Below, in pieces: positions 49,052-64,000 of a stretch of DNA of 64,000 nt. Position numbers and translations under genes: made by a program. Within the stretch, counting starts at the first letter, position 1, and each line of letters begins with the position of its first letter. Source of the DNA: Candidatus Melainabacteria bacterium (GTDB lineage Bacteria > Cyanobacteriota > Vampirovibrionia > 2-02-FULL-35-15). The DNA lies in the NCBI GenBank assembly GCA_023250195.1, contig JAHFBF010000002.1, forward strand, positions 372,001 through 436,000, in the 5' to 3' direction. A model generated the notes under the pieces. The model saw nothing but the letters and a program-made list of their open reading frames with translations, had not been told where the DNA came from and made no database searches.

Positions 49052-50395
49052 GTGTTCAAAAAATTACTAATTGCAAATAGAGGTGAAGTTGCACTTCGCA
49101 TTATCCGGGCAGCTCGTGAGCTTGGAATTGAAACTGTTGCAGTTTACTCTCAGGCTGATGCAACTTCACTTCATGTAGAGCTAGCCGACGAAGCTTATTG
49201 TATCGGTCCTGCAAGATCAGCAAATAGTTATTTAAACATCCCTTCAATAATCAGCACTGCAATTTTGTGCAGAGCAGATGCAATTCATCCCGGCTACGGA
49301 TTTTTAGCTGAAAATGCAACCTTTGCTGAAATGTGTGAATCACATGGAATTAAATTCATAGGACCAACATCAAAAAATATTTCTTCAATGGGAGATAAAT
49401 CTACTGCTAAAACAATCATGAAAGATTCTAAGGTCCCTGTAATTCCAGGAATTGACGGTCTAATAGATAACTCACAAAAAGCAATTGAAGGTGCAAAAAA
49501 TATTGGATATCCTGTCATTGTAAAAGCTACAGCAGGTGGTGGTGGAAGAGGGATGCGGGTAGCCTATGATGAAGAGCAATTAATCTCAAGTATTGATTCT
49601 GCAGCTCAGGAAGCAAACAATGCTTTTGGAAATGCCGGTATTTATCTTGAAAGATATATTACAAAAATCAGACATATTGAAGTACAAATACTGGCTGATG
49701 AGCATGGAAACGTAATTCATCTTGGAGAGAGAGACTGCACAGTACAAAGAAGACATCAAAAATTACTGGAAGAAGCACCAAGCTTACACATCAACAGCAC
49801 GCTAAGAGAAAAGATCGGACTCTATGCAGTTAACGCTGCAAAATCAATTAATTATAGAAATGCCGGCACAATTGAGTTTATCCTGGATCTGGAAACTAAA
49901 AACTTTTATTTTATGGAAATGAATACAAGGATTCAGGTAGAACATCCAGTTACAGAAACAATTTATAATATTGATTTAATTAAAGCTCAGATAAGAATAG
50001 CCAGTGGTGAAAAACTCTGGTTAAAACAGGATGATATTAAAATCAATGGTCATGCAATAGAATTTAGAATAAATGCTGAAGACCCGGAGAAAAATTTTGC
50101 ACCTTCACCTGGAAGAATTGACGGATATATTGCACCGGGTGGACCAGGGGTAAGGGTGGACAGCCACTGTTACACAGGTTATGAAGTCCCTCCATATTAT
50201 GATTCAATGATTGCAAAACTTATTGTATGGGATAAAGACAGAAATCTTGCTATAAAGCGTGGAATTAGAGCACTGGATGAGTTTGCCATTACCGGAATTC
50301 ATACTACAATTCCATTTCATTTAAAGGTTTTAGAACATCCAAAATTTATTTCCGGAGATTTTAGTACTGATTTCGTGGCTAAGGAATTCTCTTAA
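49052..50395 (+). CDS. accC: acetyl-CoA carboxylase biotin carboxylase subunit
   Basis: [49 protein letters not shown] start. Confidence 0.96.
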
Positions 50396-53340
50396 ACTTC
50401 CACTTCTTCCTCATCTTCTTCGCTTTCCTCATCATCTTCTTCATGGTTATGTCCATCATGTTCACTGTCATGCTCAACAGCTTCAATCTGAGCATGCATA
50501 AGTAAAACCACTGCTTCACGTTTTACATCAATAAGCAGCTGTTCAAACATATCAAAAGCTTCTTTTTTATATTCCATTAATGGATCTTTTTGACCATAAC
50601 CTCTTAAATGTATCCCTTCACGCAAGGCATCCATATTATGCAGGTGGTCTACCCATTTAGAGTCAATAACATGAAGCATAATCTGACGTTCAATTTCTTT
50701 TATATTTTCAACACCCAGATCTTTCTGCTTAATTGAATATGCATCCTGTGCAGCCTGTTCCAATACTTCATTCAGATCTTCAAAGGATTTACAACTCAAT
50801 TCTTCTACAGTAAGAGTATTATTTAATACAGGAAAATCAGCAATTAGTGCTTTATAGAGATTGGGCAAAGATTCATCCTGCCAGCTTTCCGGAGGAGTTT
50901 CAGGATTTATATGGGAATATAAAGTATTGTGGACATGGGCGTTTATCATTTCAATAACTGAATCACTTATATCTGAACCTTCTAATATCCTTCTTCTTTC
51001 ACGATATATTACCTCTCTCTGGGTATTCATTACGTCGTCATACTGCAGGACATGTTTTCTGAGATCAAAGTTATGAGCTTCTACACGTTTTTGTGCCCCT
51101 TCAACAGCATTAGTTACCATCTTGGCTTCTATCGGTAGATCTTCTTCTGCTTTAAGAAAAGTCATAATACTGGAAATCTTTTCTCCACCAAAGATTCTCA
51201 TTAAATTATCTTCAAGTGAAAGGAAAAATTTCGTTGAACCAGGATCTCCCTGTCTGGCTGCTCTTCCACGAAGCTGGTTATCTATTCTTCTTGATTCATG
51301 TCTTTCAGTACCTATAATGTGAAGCCCACCAAGCTCTACTACTTTTTCATGCTCTTTATCACACTCATCTTTAAACTTTTGAAATAATTCTTTCCATTTT
51401 TCTTTATATTCCAGGCTGTTTTGTTCCAGTTTAAATTTAGTCATAGCTTCGGCTGCTAAATAATCCGGATTTCCACCAAGAATAATATCAGTACCGCGCC
51501 CAGCCATGTTTGTAGCAATCGTAATAGAACCAAGCCTTCCCGCTTGAGCAACAATATAAGCTTCTCTTTCATGATTTTTAGCATTTAAGACATTGTGTGG
51601 AATCTTATTTCTTATTGCTTCTAGAACTACAACCGATGATTCAAATCTATCCAGGACAAATGCAAGTTCACTATCTTTATATGTTTTTTTCAGTTCTTCA
51701 ATAATTGGTTTAATATCACAACCCTTAAGATTTCCTGGTCTATCTAAAAGCTTTATTAACTTTTCAGTCTGTTCATTATTGATTTTTCTCTCTTTTAAAG
51801 TTTTTAAAACTCTTTGAGCATTTTCCTGCATTACTTTTGTCATTACCTGAGGCTTCGATAGAACTTCAGAAATTAATTCTGATTTTTCTATACTTATTGT
51901 TCCTACCAATACCGGTCTTCCTGCAAGATGAGTTTCCACTATCTCTTCAATACAAGAATAGAATTTGTATTTTTCAGTTCTATAAACCTGATCATCAATA
52001 TCTCCTCTGACATTTATCTTATTTGTTGGAATAGAAACCACATCAAGATTATAGATTTTTCTAAACTCATCCTTTTCTGTATAAGCAGTACCAGTCATCC
52101 CTGCTAATTTTGGATAAAGTCTGAATAAATTCTGAAAAGTAATGCTTGCCAGCGTCAAAGTTTCTTCCTGAATCGGTACTGATTCTTTAGCTTCAATAGC
52201 CTGATGCAGCCCATCACTCCAGCGTCGCCCCATCATTAACCGTCCTGTAAATTCATCAACTATTACGACTTCCTGCTTGTTATTATTTTCCGGATTCGGT
52301 TTTATTACATAATCAATATCTTTTTTAAAAAGCTCTTTTGCTTTTAATCCCTGCAACAAATTATGAGCCAGGTTTGCACGAATATCCCACAAGTCATCAA
52401 TACCAAGCAGCTTTTCTGCATTTTTAATACCATCATCAGTAAGAATTACATTTTTTGCCTTTTCATCTACCCAATAATCACAATTGTGATCATCTTTATC
52501 CTTCCCCTTTTTAAGTCTCAGAGCAAGTTTAGACATTGTAATGTAAATTTCTCTCTGGCTTTTGGTAGGCATTCCAGAAATAATCAAGGGGGTTCTTGCT
52601 TCATCAATTAAAATACTGTCAACCTCATCTACAATTGCATAAAAATAATCTCTTTGAACACAGTTCTTTAAATTTGTTTCCATATTGTCTCTTAAATAAT
52701 CAAAACCAAATTCATTGTTAGTGCCATAAGTAATATCTTTTCTGTAAGAATATAATTTTTCGGTTTTCTTCTGGTTCGGTATAACCAACCCAACATCCAT
52801 TCCTAAAAAGTTATAGATTTTACCCATCCATGCAGAATCACGCTTTGCAAGGTAATCATTAACAGTTACTACATTAACTCCACGCCCACATAATGCATTT
52901 AAATAAACCGGCAGTGTTGCAACCAGCGTTTTACCTTCACCAGTTTTCATTTCAGATATATTTCCATTATGAAGTACGATTCCACCCATAAGCTGTACAT
53001 CAAAATGCCTCATATTTAAAACTCTTTTTGAGACTTCTCGAACCAGCGCAAAAGCTTCAGGCAAAATCTCATATAGAACTTCAGACGTAGCTCTGGCTCT
53101 TGTAGTCCTTATAATTCCAGGAATTTTTGGAGCATCTTCAGGTATTAATAATCTGTCTTCAACATTTTTTAATTTATTGTCTATTATGCCTTTAAAATAT
53201 GGGGTTTTTGCTTTTAGTTCATCATCAGAAAGTTTCGAGATTTCTGTTTCCAAGCTATTTATTTTTTCAACCAAAGGTTGAATAGCCTTTATTTTAGCCT
53301 CGCTATTTTCACCAAACAGTTTTTCCAGGAACTTCAGCAT
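50392..53340 (-). CDS. secA: preprotein translocase subunit SecA
   Basis: [47 protein letters not shown]. Confidence 0.98.
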
Positions 53341-55608: not shown

Positions 55609-55637
55609 TAGAGGCATGCCAGTCTCTACTTTTTTTT
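55607..55637 (+). terminator. hairpin AGTAGAG...CTCTACT plus T-run
   Basis: Arms 55607-55613 and 55624-55630 followed by TTTTTTT; overlaps the upstream stop codon. Confidence 0.75.
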
Positions 55638-56060
55638 ACGACGTGAAATTAATATCCCTATATAACCGCCAAGTGCAGCAAATAAGACCGTAATAACAAT
55701 CACAAAAATACTGGTAGTTAGAAACAAAGCAGGCAACAGCTCTAAAAAATTCGGTATAGAACCGGCTTCTTTTGGCCAATTTTTTTCCAGAGTTCTAATC
55801 AACATCTGCTGATTATCAGAAGATCTAAAAGAAATCAGAGTAAGAATATCAAGGAAGGTTCCACCTATAATCCCTGAGAATAGCCCTAAAAAAAGGCCAT
55901 CGCTAATAGATCCAATTTGTTTGGTAATTTTATTTGCAAGTCTAACAGTTACATAGCCACCGGCTATTGCCCATAAAAATATTGCCGGCACAAAAACTAC
56001 TGAAAGCATTGCGATTAACAATCCACCAAAAATCACCGGTTTTAAATAAGGATCTTTCAT
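55626..56060 (-). CDS. membrane protein of unknown function
   Basis: 144 aa, ~4 TM segments. Confidence 0.65.
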   Translation of the reverse strand: MKDPYLKPVIFGGLLIAMLSVVFVPAIFLWAIAGGYVTVRLANKITKQIGSISDGLFLGLFSGIIGGTFLDILTLISFRSSDNQQMLIRTLEKNWPKEAGSIPNFLELLPALFLTTSIFVIVITVLFAALGGYIGILISRRKKK

Positions 56061-56064
56061 ATAT

Positions 56065-56176
56065 CGCTCCGTGTCAACCCTTTTTTATTTTATCTTAAAA
56101 AGGGTTGGATACTCTGCTCTTAGCGGCTAATTCTTTTTAACGTTCCGGTTTTTCGCAGATGGAAAAACCTTCACTT
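56065..56176 (+). repeat. two-hairpin structured repeat, copy B
   Basis: CGCTCC...CAACCCTTTTT/AAAAAGGGTTG...CTTAGCGGCTAATTCTTTTTAACGTTCCGGTTTTTC/GAAAAACCTTCACTT. Confidence 0.85.
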
Positions 56177-56682
56177 AAATTTCTCTTATCTTTATATAAT
56201 TCATGAAGATAATGATATATTACTATACTTCCCGAACACGAAAGATTCAGTGAATGCACTAAGCCAAATTGAGGAATTTCAAGAACAGGAAAACCGCTGC
56301 TTTGTTTAAATAATGCCGGTAATCCACCTTTTTCAGCTCCAAGAAAAAATAAAGGGTTTTTAGGATAATTAAATTCAAATAAAGACTTTGAGTTTTCCGT
56401 TTGTTCAACTAAAACTAAATTATAGTCACTATTTTTCACAAATAGAAGGAAATCCTCAAGTTTCTCAAAATAATTTATTTTTGTCCATTTATCACTCGAA
56501 ACTGCGGCATAGGTATTATAACTTTTATCTCCAATTAAAAAGAATTCTTTGCCTTTAGCACAATGCACTGTTCTAAGCAGTGAACCAATATTAAACTCTT
56601 TTGAGATGTTGTAAACAGCAACTGCAAATGGATGCATCCATGAAAAATATTCCTCAAGTTTTTCATCCCTTTCTTCTGACAT
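56137..56682 (-). CDS. SpoU/TrmH-family RNA methyltransferase
   Basis: FNIGSLLRTVHCAKGKEFFLIG, FFLGAEKGGLP, SLNLSCSGSIVIYHYL. Confidence 0.85.
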   Translation of the reverse strand: MSEERDEKLEEYFSWMHPFAVAVYNISKEFNIGSLLRTVHCAKGKEFFLIGDKSYNTYAAVSSDKWTKINYFEKLEDFLLFVKNSDYNLVLVEQTENSKSLFEFNYPKNPLFFLGAEKGGLPALFKQSSGFPVLEIPQFGLVHSLNLSCSGSIVIYHYLHELYKDKRNLSEGFSICEKPER

Positions 56683-56704: not shown

Positions 56705-58408
56705 CTATTGGCTTTTAGCTGCAAGTTGATTTCCAGCAGCTATTTCTTGAATTGAAACATTGATTAAAGGACGCTTACCAATAAGCTCTAAAACACTTTT
56801 ATTTACAACATCCCTAACAATTGATTTTAAATTTAGAATTTCCTTTTCTTCTTTTTCAACGCTTTGTTTAACCGCTTCTTTTACTAACTCTACAGTCCCA
56901 AGACAAAATGCTCTCCAGTCTTTCCCTTTTGCGAAAGAACATGCTTCAGCTAAAATTTCAGGACCTGCAATAATATTTCTTTTTTTATCTACAGCAAGTG
57001 CTATTGTTATCGTTCCTTCTTTAGACAATGATATTCTTTCTTTCATTGTAGTTTCATCTATATCCAGTTTTTTTGCCTGATTATAGTAAATTGACGGGGC
57101 TGGTATTTTATTTGCAACCCTGGCAACCTGTTCTCTTAACTCAAGAACATCACCATTCTTTAAAATGTGAATATCATTTGGACTAATCCCCATCATCTCT
57201 GCAATATTTCCATACTGAACAAGCTGTCTTTCTTCTCCATGTGAAGGAGCAAATGACCTGGGCTTTGTAACTGTAAGCATAAACTTTGATTCTTCCTGTG
57301 CCGCATGACCTGAAGAATGTACTCCCTGTCCACGCCCACCGATAATCTGTACTTTCTGAACAAAAAACTGATCCATAGTATGAGCCAGAATTCTTGCAAT
57401 CCCTGGCGCAGGATTAGAGCTTACAACTATAATATCCTTAGATTTAATTTTAATCTGAGGATGCTCATTCTTTGCAACGCTGATTAAAGTAGATAAAAAA
57501 TCCCCGTATTTCCCGGAAGCTAGAATAACGACTTCATTGTCTTTTAAACTGTTAAGCTCTTTTTCCTGTATAAATAATTTCTTATCAAAGTCAATAAAAC
57601 CTGCATTAACTGCAGTATGAATTTTATTTGTCAGGTATTCTCCAGCAAGAAAAATCTTTTTGCCGTTTTTCTGTGCCAGTTTAAATATAGTCTGAAACTT
57701 ATATAAATTATTAGCATAACTAACAATAATCACTCTTGAAGAGGACTCTTTAAATATCTCATCAAATCTTTTAGTAATTGAACGCTCTGATTGAGAATAC
57801 CCGGGTGATTCAATATTTATAGAATCACTAATTAAAAGATCTACCCCTTCTTCTCCAGCTTTAGAATATGTATAGTAATCCAGCAGATTACCATCAAGCG
57901 GAGTTTGATCAACTTTGTATGAACCTGTGTATAAAACATTTCCAGTTGAATGTTTAATAAACAATCCATAAGTATCAGGAAGCATAGAGGTATTTCTTAT
58001 AGGAATAATACTGAATTCTCCGACATTAAATTCTTTTCTCGGTTCAAGAAACTCACACTCAGGCAGGGTATTATTTTTTATCTGGGACTTTAACATTTCC
58101 AGAGCAAGTTTTGAACCCCAGATCTTTGGAATTTTTACTTTATCCAAGAGATAAAATACTCCGCCAGAACAATCATCATGAGCAGAAGTTAATATCAAGC
58201 CCTTTATTTGTGATTGATTTTCACTTAAATAAGTCGCACTTGGCAATATAAGATCTACACCTGTCAAATCAAAGCCAGGAAGCATCATTCCAAAATTTAC
58301 AATTACAATTTCTCCCTTACTTTCAAGAATCCAGGAATTCTTCCCAATTTCACCATGTCCACCAAGTGGAATTACTCTTAATATGTCTTTTGTATCTTTT
58401 GTTTTCAT
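56705..58408 (-). CDS. RNase J-like beta-CASP protein with degenerate metal-binding site; start trimmed to MKTKDTKD
   Basis: GGHGEIGKN, LLISDSINIESPGYSQSER, GGRGQGVHSSGHAAQEE, PSHGEERQL; HxHxDH replaced by SAHDDC. Confidence 0.88.
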   Translation of the reverse strand: MKTKDTKDILRVIPLGGHGEIGKNSWILESKGEIVIVNFGMMLPGFDLTGVDLILPSATYLSENQSQIKGLILTSAHDDCSGGVFYLLDKVKIPKIWGSKLALEMLKSQIKNNTLPECEFLEPRKEFNVGEFSIIPIRNTSMLPDTYGLFIKHSTGNVLYTGSYKVDQTPLDGNLLDYYTYSKAGEEGVDLLISDSINIESPGYSQSERSITKRFDEIFKESSSRVIIVSYANNLYKFQTIFKLAQKNGKKIFLAGEYLTNKIHTAVNAGFIDFDKKLFIQEKELNSLKDNEVVILASGKYGDFLSTLISVAKNEHPQIKIKSKDIIVVSSNPAPGIARILAHTMDQFFVQKVQIIGGRGQGVHSSGHAAQEESKFMLTVTKPRSFAPSHGEERQLVQYGNIAEMMGISPNDIHILKNGDVLELREQVARVANKIPAPSIYYNQAKKLDIDETTMKERISLSKEGTITIALAVDKKRNIIAGPEILAEACSFAKGKDWRAFCLGTVELVKEAVKQSVEKEEKEILNLKSIVRDVVNKSVLELIGKRPLINVSIQEIAAGNQLAAKSQ

Positions 58409-58421
58409 TCTTTTTATATAG

Positions 58422-58509
58422 CGCTCCGTGTTTTCAAGAAAACACTCCACTCTTAGCGGCTAATTCTTCTTGACGTTCCAGTTTTTCGTTTGCAGAAAAA
58501 CCTTCACTT
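58422..58509 (+). repeat. two-hairpin structured repeat, copy C
   Basis: CGCTCCGTGTTTTCAAGAAAACAC...CTTAGCGGCTAATTCTTCTTGACGTTCCAGTTTTTC/GAAAAACCTTCACTT. Confidence 0.85.
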
Positions 58510-58542: not shown

Positions 58543-59322
58543 TTATTTTGCATATACTTTGCTAAAAAATATTTCCTGTAGTTTTTTTGCACCATCAACA
58601 ATCCTGGGTCCTGGTCTATTTAAAAGATTATCATCAACTATAAATATTTGTTTGTTTTTTATTGCGTCAAGTAAATCCCAACCGGATCTGTTCAGCACCT
58701 GTATTATGTCTACCTTTTCACCAAACCCACACCAGGAAATAATTATTTTCTCAGGATTATATTCAAAGAGTTTGTCAATGCTGATTGGCATACTTCTTTT
58801 GCCTGATTTAATAAGTCCATAATCACCACCTACAATTTGAACCAACTCTGGAATCCAATTTCCTGAAATTGTAGGAGGATCATGCCATTCTTCAATATAA
58901 ACCTTTGGTTTTAAAAGCTTTGAAGGCTTATTGTTTTCAATCTCAGCTAACTGCCTTTTAATATTTTCCACCAGTTCTTCTGCACATTTCTTTTCATTTA
59001 CTATTTTTCCAACTTCTAAAATATCTGAATATATTTGTTCTAAATTTAATGGATCAGAATGATAGACATTAAAACCGGCTTCTTTCAGCTTCACTGCAAT
59101 CTTTTCCTGAACAATGCTATTTGTAATAATTAAATCGGGTTTTAATTTTTCAATTAACTCATAATTAAGCTTTATCCATGAACCAATTACTGGTTTTTCT
59201 TTTAATAAATCTTTTGGAAAGTCACAATAGGCGGTCTTCCCTATAATTAAATCTTGCCTGCCAAGCAAACAAAGGATTTCAGTATGAGCGGGAGAACATG
59301 AAACAATTCGGGGTGGATTCAT
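58543..59322 (-). CDS. cobalamin/iron-chelate-binding protein (BtuF-like) without obvious signal peptide
   Basis: RIVSCSPAHTEILCLLG, LKPDLIITNSI, IISWCGFG. Confidence 0.8.
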   Translation of the reverse strand: MNPPRIVSCSPAHTEILCLLGRQDLIIGKTAYCDFPKDLLKEKPVIGSWIKLNYELIEKLKPDLIITNSIVQEKIAVKLKEAGFNVYHSDPLNLEQIYSDILEVGKIVNEKKCAEELVENIKRQLAEIENNKPSKLLKPKVYIEEWHDPPTISGNWIPELVQIVGGDYGLIKSGKRSMPISIDKLFEYNPEKIIISWCGFGEKVDIIQVLNRSGWDLLDAIKNKQIFIVDDNLLNRPGPRIVDGAKKLQEIFFSKVYAK

Positions 59323-60447: not shown

Positions 60448-61794
60448 ATGACCGGTATTTCAGCAACAAATCAAAGTAATAGAGTACTGCCACAATCCAA
60501 CTGGAATTACTATAAAGATCTAGCAAGTATTGTTTGTTCCAGAGAATCAACTTATAGAACTGCTCTGGATATTACCGGATTTGACATTCCTGTATTAACT
60601 GCAGATGCCTTTAGAGGGATAAAGAAATTTCTAGAATCCCTTGTTGAGTGTTCTTCAGCAACTATTTTTGTAGGCATATCACCACTCTTAACTACCTTTG
60701 TGGGTAAAACACTCAGCAAAGCAACACTACCAGAAAAGCTTCAAAAAGATGCAATGAATTTATTAAAATTCAATATGGATGAATTAAGAGATTTTGAGAA
60801 ATTTAAACCTGCTTTACAAAGAATAAGATCAGAAGAAGTCGAAGATAAATTATTTATTGCTGCCCTGTTTGAAAAAGCAGGAAAGAAAGACAAAGCAGAA
60901 TTCTATAAAAAAGAAGCTCAGGAAATAGAGGAATTCTGCGACAAATTTGAAGCTACAGACAACACAAGAAAAGTTGCTTATAAGCTAAAAAAAGCAACTA
61001 TAATCGGTGAAAGTTTTATAGAAGGTGGATTCTGGGGTGCTTATGGATTGTTGTTTAGAGGATTTAGAAAATATATTTTACGAGAAGATAGATTTACCGG
61101 AACCAAAGGGTATGTAAGCGATGAAGAAAGCCAGGAGCTTGGCGAGACTGGAGGACTTAATTTATTTCAAAAGATTGTTGGTGTAGGATCAATATTTATA
61201 TCTCCTATTTTAAATTTCTTTTTACTTAATAAAATTGAAGATAGAGAAGCTGTAAAGAAAAGCAAATTCCTCCAGGTCGTTGACAATAATCTGGATATGA
61301 CACATGGAGTATATCCGAAACTTGGACTTTTATTTACGCAAACAACTATTCCAAAATGGATTGGTACTATATGCCTTTCCCAGGGATGGTTTGAAAGAAC
61401 TGAAAGAATTTTAAAGCTCTGTACAGTAATTCCATCATGGTGGTTAGGACATAGAGTTACAAATGGTACATGTGCATTAAATGCAGACAAAAAATTAGCT
61501 GAAAAATATAAGGTACCGCGCGGTATTTTAGTAGAGCCGGAATACTTAAATCAAACAAAAGATAATAATGAAGGCTTTTTAAAGAGGATTCAGAAGAGAT
61601 TCCCTGAACCCGCAAAGATTCACCATGTATTAAAATCAACTGAAGGAAGTAAGCCACTGCAGGATGAAGCAGAAGATCAACATGCACAATGTCTTTATAA
61701 AGGATTTGCATTACATTCGCTTGGAGTATTTGCTATAAACATGGCAGTAAATTACACGACTAAATTAAGAGCACTGTGGGCACTGAGAAACTGA
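60448..61794 (+). CDS. conserved hypothetical protein, paralogue of 36996-38348
   Basis: Extensive collinear identity with the 36996-38348 product. Confidence 0.85.
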   Translation: MTGISATNQSNRVLPQSNWNYYKDLASIVCSRESTYRTALDITGFDIPVLTADAFRGIKKFLESLVECSSATIFVGISPLLTTFVGKTLSKATLPEKLQKDAMNLLKFNMDELRDFEKFKPALQRIRSEEVEDKLFIAALFEKAGKKDKAEFYKKEAQEIEEFCDKFEATDNTRKVAYKLKKATIIGESFIEGGFWGAYGLLFRGFRKYILREDRFTGTKGYVSDEESQELGETGGLNLFQKIVGVGSIFISPILNFFLLNKIEDREAVKKSKFLQVVDNNLDMTHGVYPKLGLLFTQTTIPKWIGTICLSQGWFERTERILKLCTVIPSWWLGHRVTNGTCALNADKKLAEKYKVPRGILVEPEYLNQTKDNNEGFLKRIQKRFPEPAKIHHVLKSTEGSKPLQDEAEDQHAQCLYKGFALHSLGVFAINMAVNYTTKLRALWALRN

Positions 61795-62603: not shown

Positions 62604-64000
62604 ATGCAAATAACTGATGTCAATATGGCTACTGGTGCAGTTTCTCTACCTAAAGATCCACCTACCGTAGATGCAAATACACCTATACCAGAAAAAGTTG
62701 CTGTAGTACCTCCAGAAGAGCCTATAAAAACACCTCCAAGCCGTCTCATAAGTCCAGAAACATTAAAAGCCACAGCAAAGCTTTGTTCATGGGTTACGCT
62801 AGGAACATCTAGATGGCTAGTGTATTTAACAGTTTTAGTAATAACACCTTTGCTTTGTACCCCTTTAGGAAACAGTTTGTTAAATAAAGCTGCTAGAGGT
62901 TTAGGAATAGCACCTCCAGGAGCATCTAAGCCAAAAGAAGATTCCAATTATAGTCAAGCTTTAAACTTTGATCCTTTTTTTGATGGACTCCCTTCTTCAA
63001 AAAAAATCAAACAAGATTGTGCAGCTTTAGAAATTCCACCAGGCAGTATGGGGAAACTTGAATCAAGTCAGGAAGTTGATCGACTAAAAGCCAGAATTAA
63101 AAGCAAACAAACTAATGATGAAATAAACACTAGCGACACTTTAACTCTTTTAGAAGAATATAAAACACTCAATAAATTAACTTGGGGCGAAAATGATAAC
63201 GGAACAGAAAGACTAGCATTAAATCCAGAATGGTTATGCTCCAAAGAAAGTGGATTGAATCCTCTAATGAGTATGCTTTTAAAAAGCAACAGAGATGAAA
63301 TTAAACCAGAACATGTAGAAGGCTTAAAAAGGATGCTTAAAATTAGAGAATATAACTTAAGCGATCCAGATGAACACAATAGATATATAACTTATGAAAT
63401 AGATATGTTCTATGGACCAAAACATTTAGCCACTGTAAGAGATTTAAAAAATCCAAGAATTATTGACAAAGCAAGAAACATAGATGAGCCCTGCAAAGCC
63501 CCATTCGTTATTCCCCTTGCTAACCAGATCTTCAAAAATATGAATGCTAATGACGCTGTAAGAGATGATTTGATTCCAATTCCTGATTATAGCAATCACT
63601 ATGTAATCAGAACATGGGTTCTATCAGATTCCCAGTTAGAAAACATTTTGAGACCAAACAAAATATATCCTGCATTCAGGTTTGAAGGTTCAGGTAAACT
63701 TTCTGAAAATCTATGTTTTGTGTACACTAACGAAGATGGCAAACTCACATCAAGAGATCAATATGGAAGAACAAATGTTTATGAAAACTTGTCTGAATTT
63801 AGATCCGAGGTGAAATTAATTGTGCTAGAACCAGATTCAGTGCCTAACTTTAACCTTTTGACTCTTATTATATTTGGTGGTGCAATTCCTCTTTCAGTTA
63901 TAACTCATATAGGAACAAAATATTTAAGCAGGAGACTCTATCCAAAGCCACCAGATTTGCCGAATAAATCGGACAAAGTAAACTTAGCTAATCCTATTAC
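62604..64000 (+). CDS. hypothetical membrane protein, truncated by window end; absent from ORF track
   Basis: Hand translation: MQITDVNMATGAVSLPKDPPTVDANTPIPEKVAVVPPEEPIKTPPSR..., open for ~465 codons; TM-like segments near both ends. Confidence 0.8.
   Translation, partial: MQITDVNMATGAVSLPKDPPTVDANTPIPEKVAVVPPEEPIKTPPSRLISPETLKATAKLCSWVTLGTSRWLVYLTVLVITPLLCTPLGNSLLNKAARGLGIAPPGASKPKEDSNYSQALNFDPFFDGLPSSKKIKQDCAALEIPPGSMGKLESSQEVDRLKARIKSKQTNDEINTSDTLTLLEEYKTLNKLTWGENDNGTERLALNPEWLCSKESGLNPLMSMLLKSNRDEIKPEHVEGLKRMLKIREYNLSDPDEHNRYITYEIDMFYGPKHLATVRDLKNPRIIDKARNIDEPCKAPFVIPLANQIFKNMNANDAVRDDLIPIPDYSNHYVIRTWVLSDSQLENILRPNKIYPAFRFEGSGKLSENLCFVYTNEDGKLTSRDQYGRTNVYENLSEFRSEVKLIVLEPDSVPNFNLLTLIIFGGAIPLSVITHIGTKYLSRRLYPKPPDLPNKSDKVNLANPI

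Follow-up and report, generated by a model that had tools for sequence, protein, structure and literature searches.

A degenerate RNase J paralogue conserved across Vampirovibrionia families, a probable non-catalytic partner of the canonical enzyme

Each family of the class Vampirovibrionia ('Melainabacteria') that carries RNase J encodes one canonical copy with all seven metal ligands (7/7) and one degenerate copy in which 0 to 3 of the seven are left. We consider it rather probable that the degenerate protein, referred to here as pseudo-RNase J, is a non-catalytic structural or regulatory subunit, or a scaffold, of canonical RNase J. The gene from which the analysis started lies in a stretch of 64,000 nucleotides of a Candidatus Melainabacteria genome (the window; Table 1). 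An earlier note, made from the letters of this window, had proposed an RNase J homologue with a dismantled metal site that might serve as an RNA-binding or scaffold paralogue or use a different chemistry, an interpretation that is, taken as a whole, partly supported by the results.

The gene, its metal site and its RNA channel

The coding sequence of pseudo-RNase J (last stop base at 56705) specifies 567 amino acids from its ATG, and an alternative in-frame GTG start is present upstream at 58450. The earlier description of the gene gave the motifs correctly and no strand, which is minus. The RNase J model TIGR00649 covers the protein from end to end with a score above its cutoff of 400 bits, and B. 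subtilis RNase J1 (3zq4) aligns with it over 548 residues, so that the homology is indeed full-length, as had been claimed. Pfam matched RNase_J_b_CASP (PF22505), RMMBL (PF07521) and RNase_J_C (PF17770) and gave no match to Lactamase_B (PF00753) in the window protein; the latter domain is detected in 15 of 30 degenerate members versus 16 of 16 canonical ones. The only PHROGs match was to a generic metal-dependent hydrolase. Pseudo-RNase J thus has in common with the canonical TIGR00649 protein the domain order MBL, RNase_J_b_CASP, RMMBL, RNase_J_C, but it is without the metal ligands and the RNA base pocket of the latter. Scanning genome contigs with the window protein revealed a relative in JAHFBE010000057.1 ('Candidatus Melainabacteria bacterium isolate nzgw191'). 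The search for a canonical RNase J elsewhere in the window genome (2.21 Mb, 7 contigs, 98.9% complete), which had been suggested as a check, found one with all seven ligands on another contig (L001; C6:381815-383458). An AlphaFold2 model (window protein and L074 only) reached a pLDDT of 34 and a pTM of 0.30 and was set aside; fold and interface are judged here by sequence.

In the numbering of B. subtilis RNase J1, used throughout, the seven ligands H74, H76, D78, H79, H142, D164 and H390 read S, H, D, C, S, S and H in the window protein, i.e. four are gone (H74S, H79C, H142S, D164S) and three are kept. The altered motifs TSAHDDC, NTSMLPDT, YTGSYK and IVNFG had all been read correctly, and the loss of at least four ligand or strictly conserved positions is confirmed by the four missing ligands together with the missing motif-1 Asp. 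Mutation of metal ligands inactivates RNase J1 (PMC7864078). The change of the motif-1 Asp is real in the window protein, but it does not belong to the signature shared by the group, because Asp is kept in 24 of 32 degenerate relatives (Asn in 8; Asp in 35/35 canonical copies); it is mainly limited to the window's family. Sequencing or assembly error, which would have undone the earlier claim, is excluded because ten family-level orthologues from separate assemblies repeat the same pattern without internal stops.

Table 1. Features of the pseudo-RNase J gene and its neighbours in the window (Bsu, B. subtilis RNase J1 numbering)
Feature	Position	Strand	Remarks
SpoU-family rRNA 2'-O-methylase gene	56140..56682	-	next downstream, 22 bp past the pseudo-RNase J stop
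Pseudo-RNase J coding sequence	56705..58408	-	TIGR00649 420.8 bits; PDB 3zq4 E=1e-97
GPEILAEACSFAKGKDWRAF, C-terminal-domain block	56906..56965	-	20 residues with the strongest conservation in the window's family
PSHGEER	57227..57247	-	H390 kept in the window protein; G391, E392, R394 invariant in the group
HSSGH, 5'-phosphate-binding loop (Bsu H364-S366-H368)	57305..57319	-	kept in the window protein
D346	57371..57373	-	invariant in 35/35 of the degenerate group
Motif 4, YTGSYK (canonical HTGDFK)	57914..57931	-	H161Y; D164S, which removes the bridging metal ligand
Motif 3, NTSMLPDT (canonical N/T-H-S-I-x-D-S)	57971..57994	-	H142S
Motif 2, TSAHDDC (canonical THGHEDH)	58169..58189	-	H74S and H79C; H76 and D78 kept
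N38 in place of the motif-1 Asp (Bsu D37)	58295..58297	-	from alignment of both copies
Periplasmic-binding-protein (PF01497) gene	58546..59322	-	upstream, same strand as pseudo-RNase J

The channel for the RNA is altered as well. RNase J of Streptomyces coelicolor holds the bases of its substrate with F52, F241, R267, Q311 and I343 (PMC4652760), which correspond to F42, F231, R257, Q301 and I334 of the B. subtilis enzyme. This base-sandwich pocket is invariant in canonical copies; in the window protein it reads L, Y, E, Y and A, and in the degenerate group the five residues are kept in 19, 0, 9, 3 and 6% of the members, respectively, with R257 replaced by Glu or Asp in 25 of 34. Since the metal site and the base pocket are both lost, canonical exonuclease action by pseudo-RNase J would be excluded on two independent grounds, and we infer from these residues that the protein should have no ribonuclease activity.

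Distribution, origin and selection

In a first survey, 60 related genomes were searched for RNase J, and gene pairs were present in nearly every genome of five families: that of the window (f1) and f2, f4, f6 and f7. In the first alignment all 35 canonical copies had 7/7 ligands and the 35 degenerate ones 0 to 3, and 40 further sequences, taken from additional genomes of the order of f2 and f7, split into 18 with 7/7 and 22 with one or two. In other classes of the phylum, including the photosynthetic ones, nearly all genomes have a single RNase J, and all 40 sequences fetched from them carry 7/7 ligands; in total, 7/7 was found in each of the 93 canonical sequences checked. The search for similar proteins covered this phylum. 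In the library searched, no paper joined 'Melainabacteria' and 'RNase J'.

None of the 57 degenerate sequences retains H74, H142 or D164 wherever the respective position is aligned. Position 74 is always Ser or Asn, Y161 is found in 33 of 34, D164 in 0 of 34 and K166 in 34 of 34, and K166, S196, E200, E208, D325, G391, E392 and R394 are invariant throughout the group. H390 is kept in 31% of the members, and some have no ligand left (0/7). Because the same losses and the same invariant residues recur in the whole group, the ligand changes represent a shared, conserved signature and not scattered decay; the survey of relatives recommended in the earlier note thus found H74, H142 and D164 lost class-wide in the degenerate copies.

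Phylogenetic trees were built without the motif columns, so that shared loss cannot pull sequences together. In these trees the degenerate proteins fall into one clade with an SH-aLRT support of 100 under a mixture model and 100/100 under LG+G4, and this clade is located among Cyanobacteriota sequences and apart from staphylococcal J2. As RNase J2 of Staphylococcus epidermidis clusters with Firmicute J1 (100/99), the degenerate copy arose separately from Firmicute J2, and descent of the group from the Firmicute J1/J2 duplication is not supported by the tree. The topology within the degenerate clade, (f2+f7)|(f1,f4,f6), matches the trees of the canonical copy and of SecA. Given a single clade whose branching mirrors that of both markers, the simplest account is that one old duplication took place in, or before, the ancestor of these families and that both copies were then inherited vertically. 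SecA is also encoded in the window (50395-53340); compared with SecA of f5, f10 and photosynthetic outgroups, the protein of the window's family contains about 80 additional residues (near 497-578), which split the alignments.

The pseudo-RNase J gene is under purifying selection. In the window's family, dN/dS is 0.07 to 0.09 for the closest pairs and reaches 0.14 where pairs are distant and saturated; the canonical copy of the same close genomes gives 0.03 to 0.04. The distribution of constraint along the protein has changed: in the same genomes of f1, f2, f4 and f6, degenerate copies differ 1.2 to 3.5 times as much as canonical copies in three core segments, but only 0.81 to 0.91 times as much in the C-terminal domain, in all four families. 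Constraint has thus shifted away from the catalytic core and towards the C-terminal domain. The best conserved stretch of the entire degenerate protein in the window's family, GPEILAEACSFAKGKDWRAF, lies in this domain and has 85% invariant columns, and W498 is invariant across 30 aligned members. The C-terminal domain has a role in oligomerisation in other RNase J enzymes, though not in every species (PMC10119312; PMC7864078). In the dimer of Mycobacterium tuberculosis RNase J, D353 contacts R401 (PMC10119312); D346 and R394 correspond to this pair, mapped by a constant offset and not by direct alignment, and R394, like D346, is invariant in 35/35 degenerate copies and nearly so in canonical copies too.

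Co-occurrence and gene neighbourhood

Co-occurrence of the two genes was counted in genomes that are at least 90% complete and have any RNase J, a few second copies being recognised by profile score only. Both copies are present in 39 of these genomes (in two of them the degenerate gene is cut by a contig end), and none of the RNase J-bearing genomes at this level of completeness has the canonical copy only. In one genome of f2 (G026, 93% complete) the degenerate gene is present and no canonical RNase J was found, which is either an assembly gap or a case contradicting an obligate pair; another (G037) combines the degenerate gene with a low-scoring canonical fragment of 43 residues. The other genomes with a single copy are 54-88% complete. 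Because the distribution follows one clade, the co-occurrence reflects retention and not repeated joint gain or loss.

RNase J of either kind is absent from f3, f5, f8, f9 and f10 (e.g. G012, G014, G017, G056 and G258), in genomes that are 85-99% complete, and RNase E/G is present in nearly all tested genomes of these families. In the SecA tree they constitute one sister clade (f9 not placed), and RNase J was probably lost only once. We considered the joint loss of both paralogues as a sign of coupling and rejected it, since in a single clade it counts once at most.

The genes around pseudo-RNase J were considered as a functional clue and discarded. Among eight loci examined in the window's family, the SpoU gene and the PF01497 gene each adjoin pseudo-RNase J in seven, but this order is fixed in f1 only and different in all other families, so that the neighbours reveal no partner. 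In f4, for example, the neighbour encodes what we take from its sequence to be an Mfd-like protein. In the window genome the degenerate and the canonical gene are located on separate contigs; as the contigs differ and the neighbours vary by family, no operon joins the two.

Some further features of these regions were recorded. A 144-aa hydrophobic protein (window 55629-56060, minus strand; a weak DUF5518 match below cutoff) is encoded downstream of pseudo-RNase J and SpoU in 8/8 window-family loci examined. Two long open reading frames on the plus strand of the window (60448-61791 and 62604-63998; 448 and 465 aa) have no Pfam match, and relatives of the former at the same place were seen only in the two same-genus genomes examined. 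In f6, pseudo-RNase J (L048, L049, L064, L066, L069) starts with an N-terminal tail in which N, S, G and R are abundant; at about 65-130 residues it exceeds the tails of most canonical f6 copies, and it is possibly of an RNA-binding or condensate type.

Alternative explanations and known systems

The reading that we favour is as follows. RNase J was duplicated once, long ago, in this class; the two-metal active site and the base-sandwich pocket for RNA then disappeared from one copy, which was probably retained as a non-catalytic protein. Most likely, pseudo-RNase J pairs with the canonical RNase J of the same cell, using its conserved C-terminal domain as well as the dimer faces of RNase J, and in the resulting heteromer it would tune or anchor the nuclease in the way of J2 with J1 in S. 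aureus and of INTS9 and CPSF100 with INTS11 and CPSF73. We infer physical pairing because the active site and the pocket are lost, the protein is retained under selection, constraint is concentrated in the C-terminal domain and there are known precedents; an effect on the canonical enzyme would follow by the same reasoning. The non-catalytic scaffold paralogue suggested earlier is well supported: the Zn-1 ligands and the bridging Asp are lost class-wide, selection is purifying, constraint has moved to the C-terminal domain, and a canonical RNase J constantly co-occurs.

Pseudo-RNase J could instead be a stand-alone RNA-binding protein without catalysis, which holds 5'-monophosphorylated ends through H364, S366 and H368 and protects or delivers them, leaving canonical RNase J untouched. 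The phosphate loop is kept in most members of the window's family, and H364 in 83% of the whole group (S366 in 51%, H368 in 71%), and the f6 tails with their R, N, G and S residues are of a type common in RNA-binding proteins. However, S366 is present in only about half and G367 in about one third of the group, the base-sandwich pocket is lost together with R257, whose charge is usually reversed, and the strongest constraint is found in the C-terminal domain and not in the channel. We therefore regard this explanation as unlikely. Of the earlier RNA-binding idea, binding through the normal channel is weakened by the loss of the pocket and the acidic residue at 257 in most copies, but pseudo-RNase J may still bind RNA ends weakly by means of the partly kept loop.

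Clearly less probable is an altered metalloenzyme in which H76, D78, C79 and H390 bind one metal in the window's family and support a weak endonuclease. Three ligands and a Cys do remain in the window protein, and the one-metal J2 of S. epidermidis (D78H, H79A, D164E, Gln at 390) is a metal-dependent endonuclease in vitro (PMC7864078); J2, however, has a complete single site (H74, H76, H142 and an acidic residue at 164), of which H74, H142 and D164 are all gone here. The residue at 79 differs (S, C, T, A, F) even between members of the window's family, where one protein has Cys at 76 and Glu at 78 and several have H390 replaced, and this variation of positions 76, 78, 79 and 390 indicates that the metal site is not under selection. 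A different chemistry, as the earlier note had it, is thus conceivable within the window's family only and does not characterise the group, in which some members keep 0/7 ligands. A non-catalytic protein with a new role unrelated to RNase J, for example one tied to the SpoU rRNA methylase in ribosome biogenesis, has an even slimmer chance: the SpoU gene is next on the same strand in most window-family loci examined, but this neighbour is not retained in other families. A decaying pseudogene or an assembly artefact is hardly credible; early decay would be expected to show itself in lost catalytic residues alone, but the complete copies of the window's family are full length without internal stops, dN/dS is low and the gene is kept across five families, and both this reading and that of a sequencing error were rejected on these grounds.

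Active MBL/beta-CASP nucleases paired with a dead one characterise eukaryotic 3'-end processing, and Firmicutes are known to have J2 proteins that are dead in part. In Staphylococcus aureus, a J2 active-site mutant, unlike a J2 deletion, behaves like the wild type, and a complex of J1 and J2 has been proposed in which J1 is the active and J2 a structural subunit (PMC3937233); J2 of S. epidermidis binds one metal (PMC7864078). Staphylococcal J2 and pseudo-RNase J resemble each other in being second copies that have a changed metal site and accompany a canonical RNase J. They differ in origin, as J2 of S. epidermidis groups with Firmicute J1 and not with the degenerate clade, and in extent: J2 retains the side formed by H74, H76 and H142 together with an acidic position 164, whereas the degenerate group is always without H74, H142 and D164 and has also lost the base-sandwich pocket. 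CPSF100 and INTS9 are MBL/beta-CASP proteins with a destroyed HxHxDH motif, lost in pseudo-RNase J as well, and these pseudonucleases form heterodimers with the catalytic CPSF73 and INTS11 through their C-terminal domains (PMC7980224); pseudo-RNase J shows raised relative constraint in its own C-terminal domain. CPSF100 and INTS9 are eukaryotic, belong to another beta-CASP family with other C-terminal domains and act in 3'-end processing. The likeness drawn here is one of working principle only.

For annotation, the score of pseudo-RNase J above the curated cutoff means that TIGR00649 can label a probable non-enzyme as a ribonuclease. Whether the whole clade runs RNase J as an obligate pair, independent of Firmicute J1/J2, of a catalytic subunit and a metal-free pseudonuclease subunit, the latter devoid of metal and of a working RNA channel and retained for a part in assembly or regulation, is in our judgement evenly balanced. 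If true, it would parallel CPSF73/CPSF100 and INTS11/INTS9, and relatives of the cyanobacteria would have arrived separately at the pairing of an active with a dead nuclease; in them the active site is more completely lost, and selection has long retained the degenerate copy. With its shift of constraint from the core to the C-terminal domain, this set of sequences offers natural material for asking why RNase J systems recruit dead partners.
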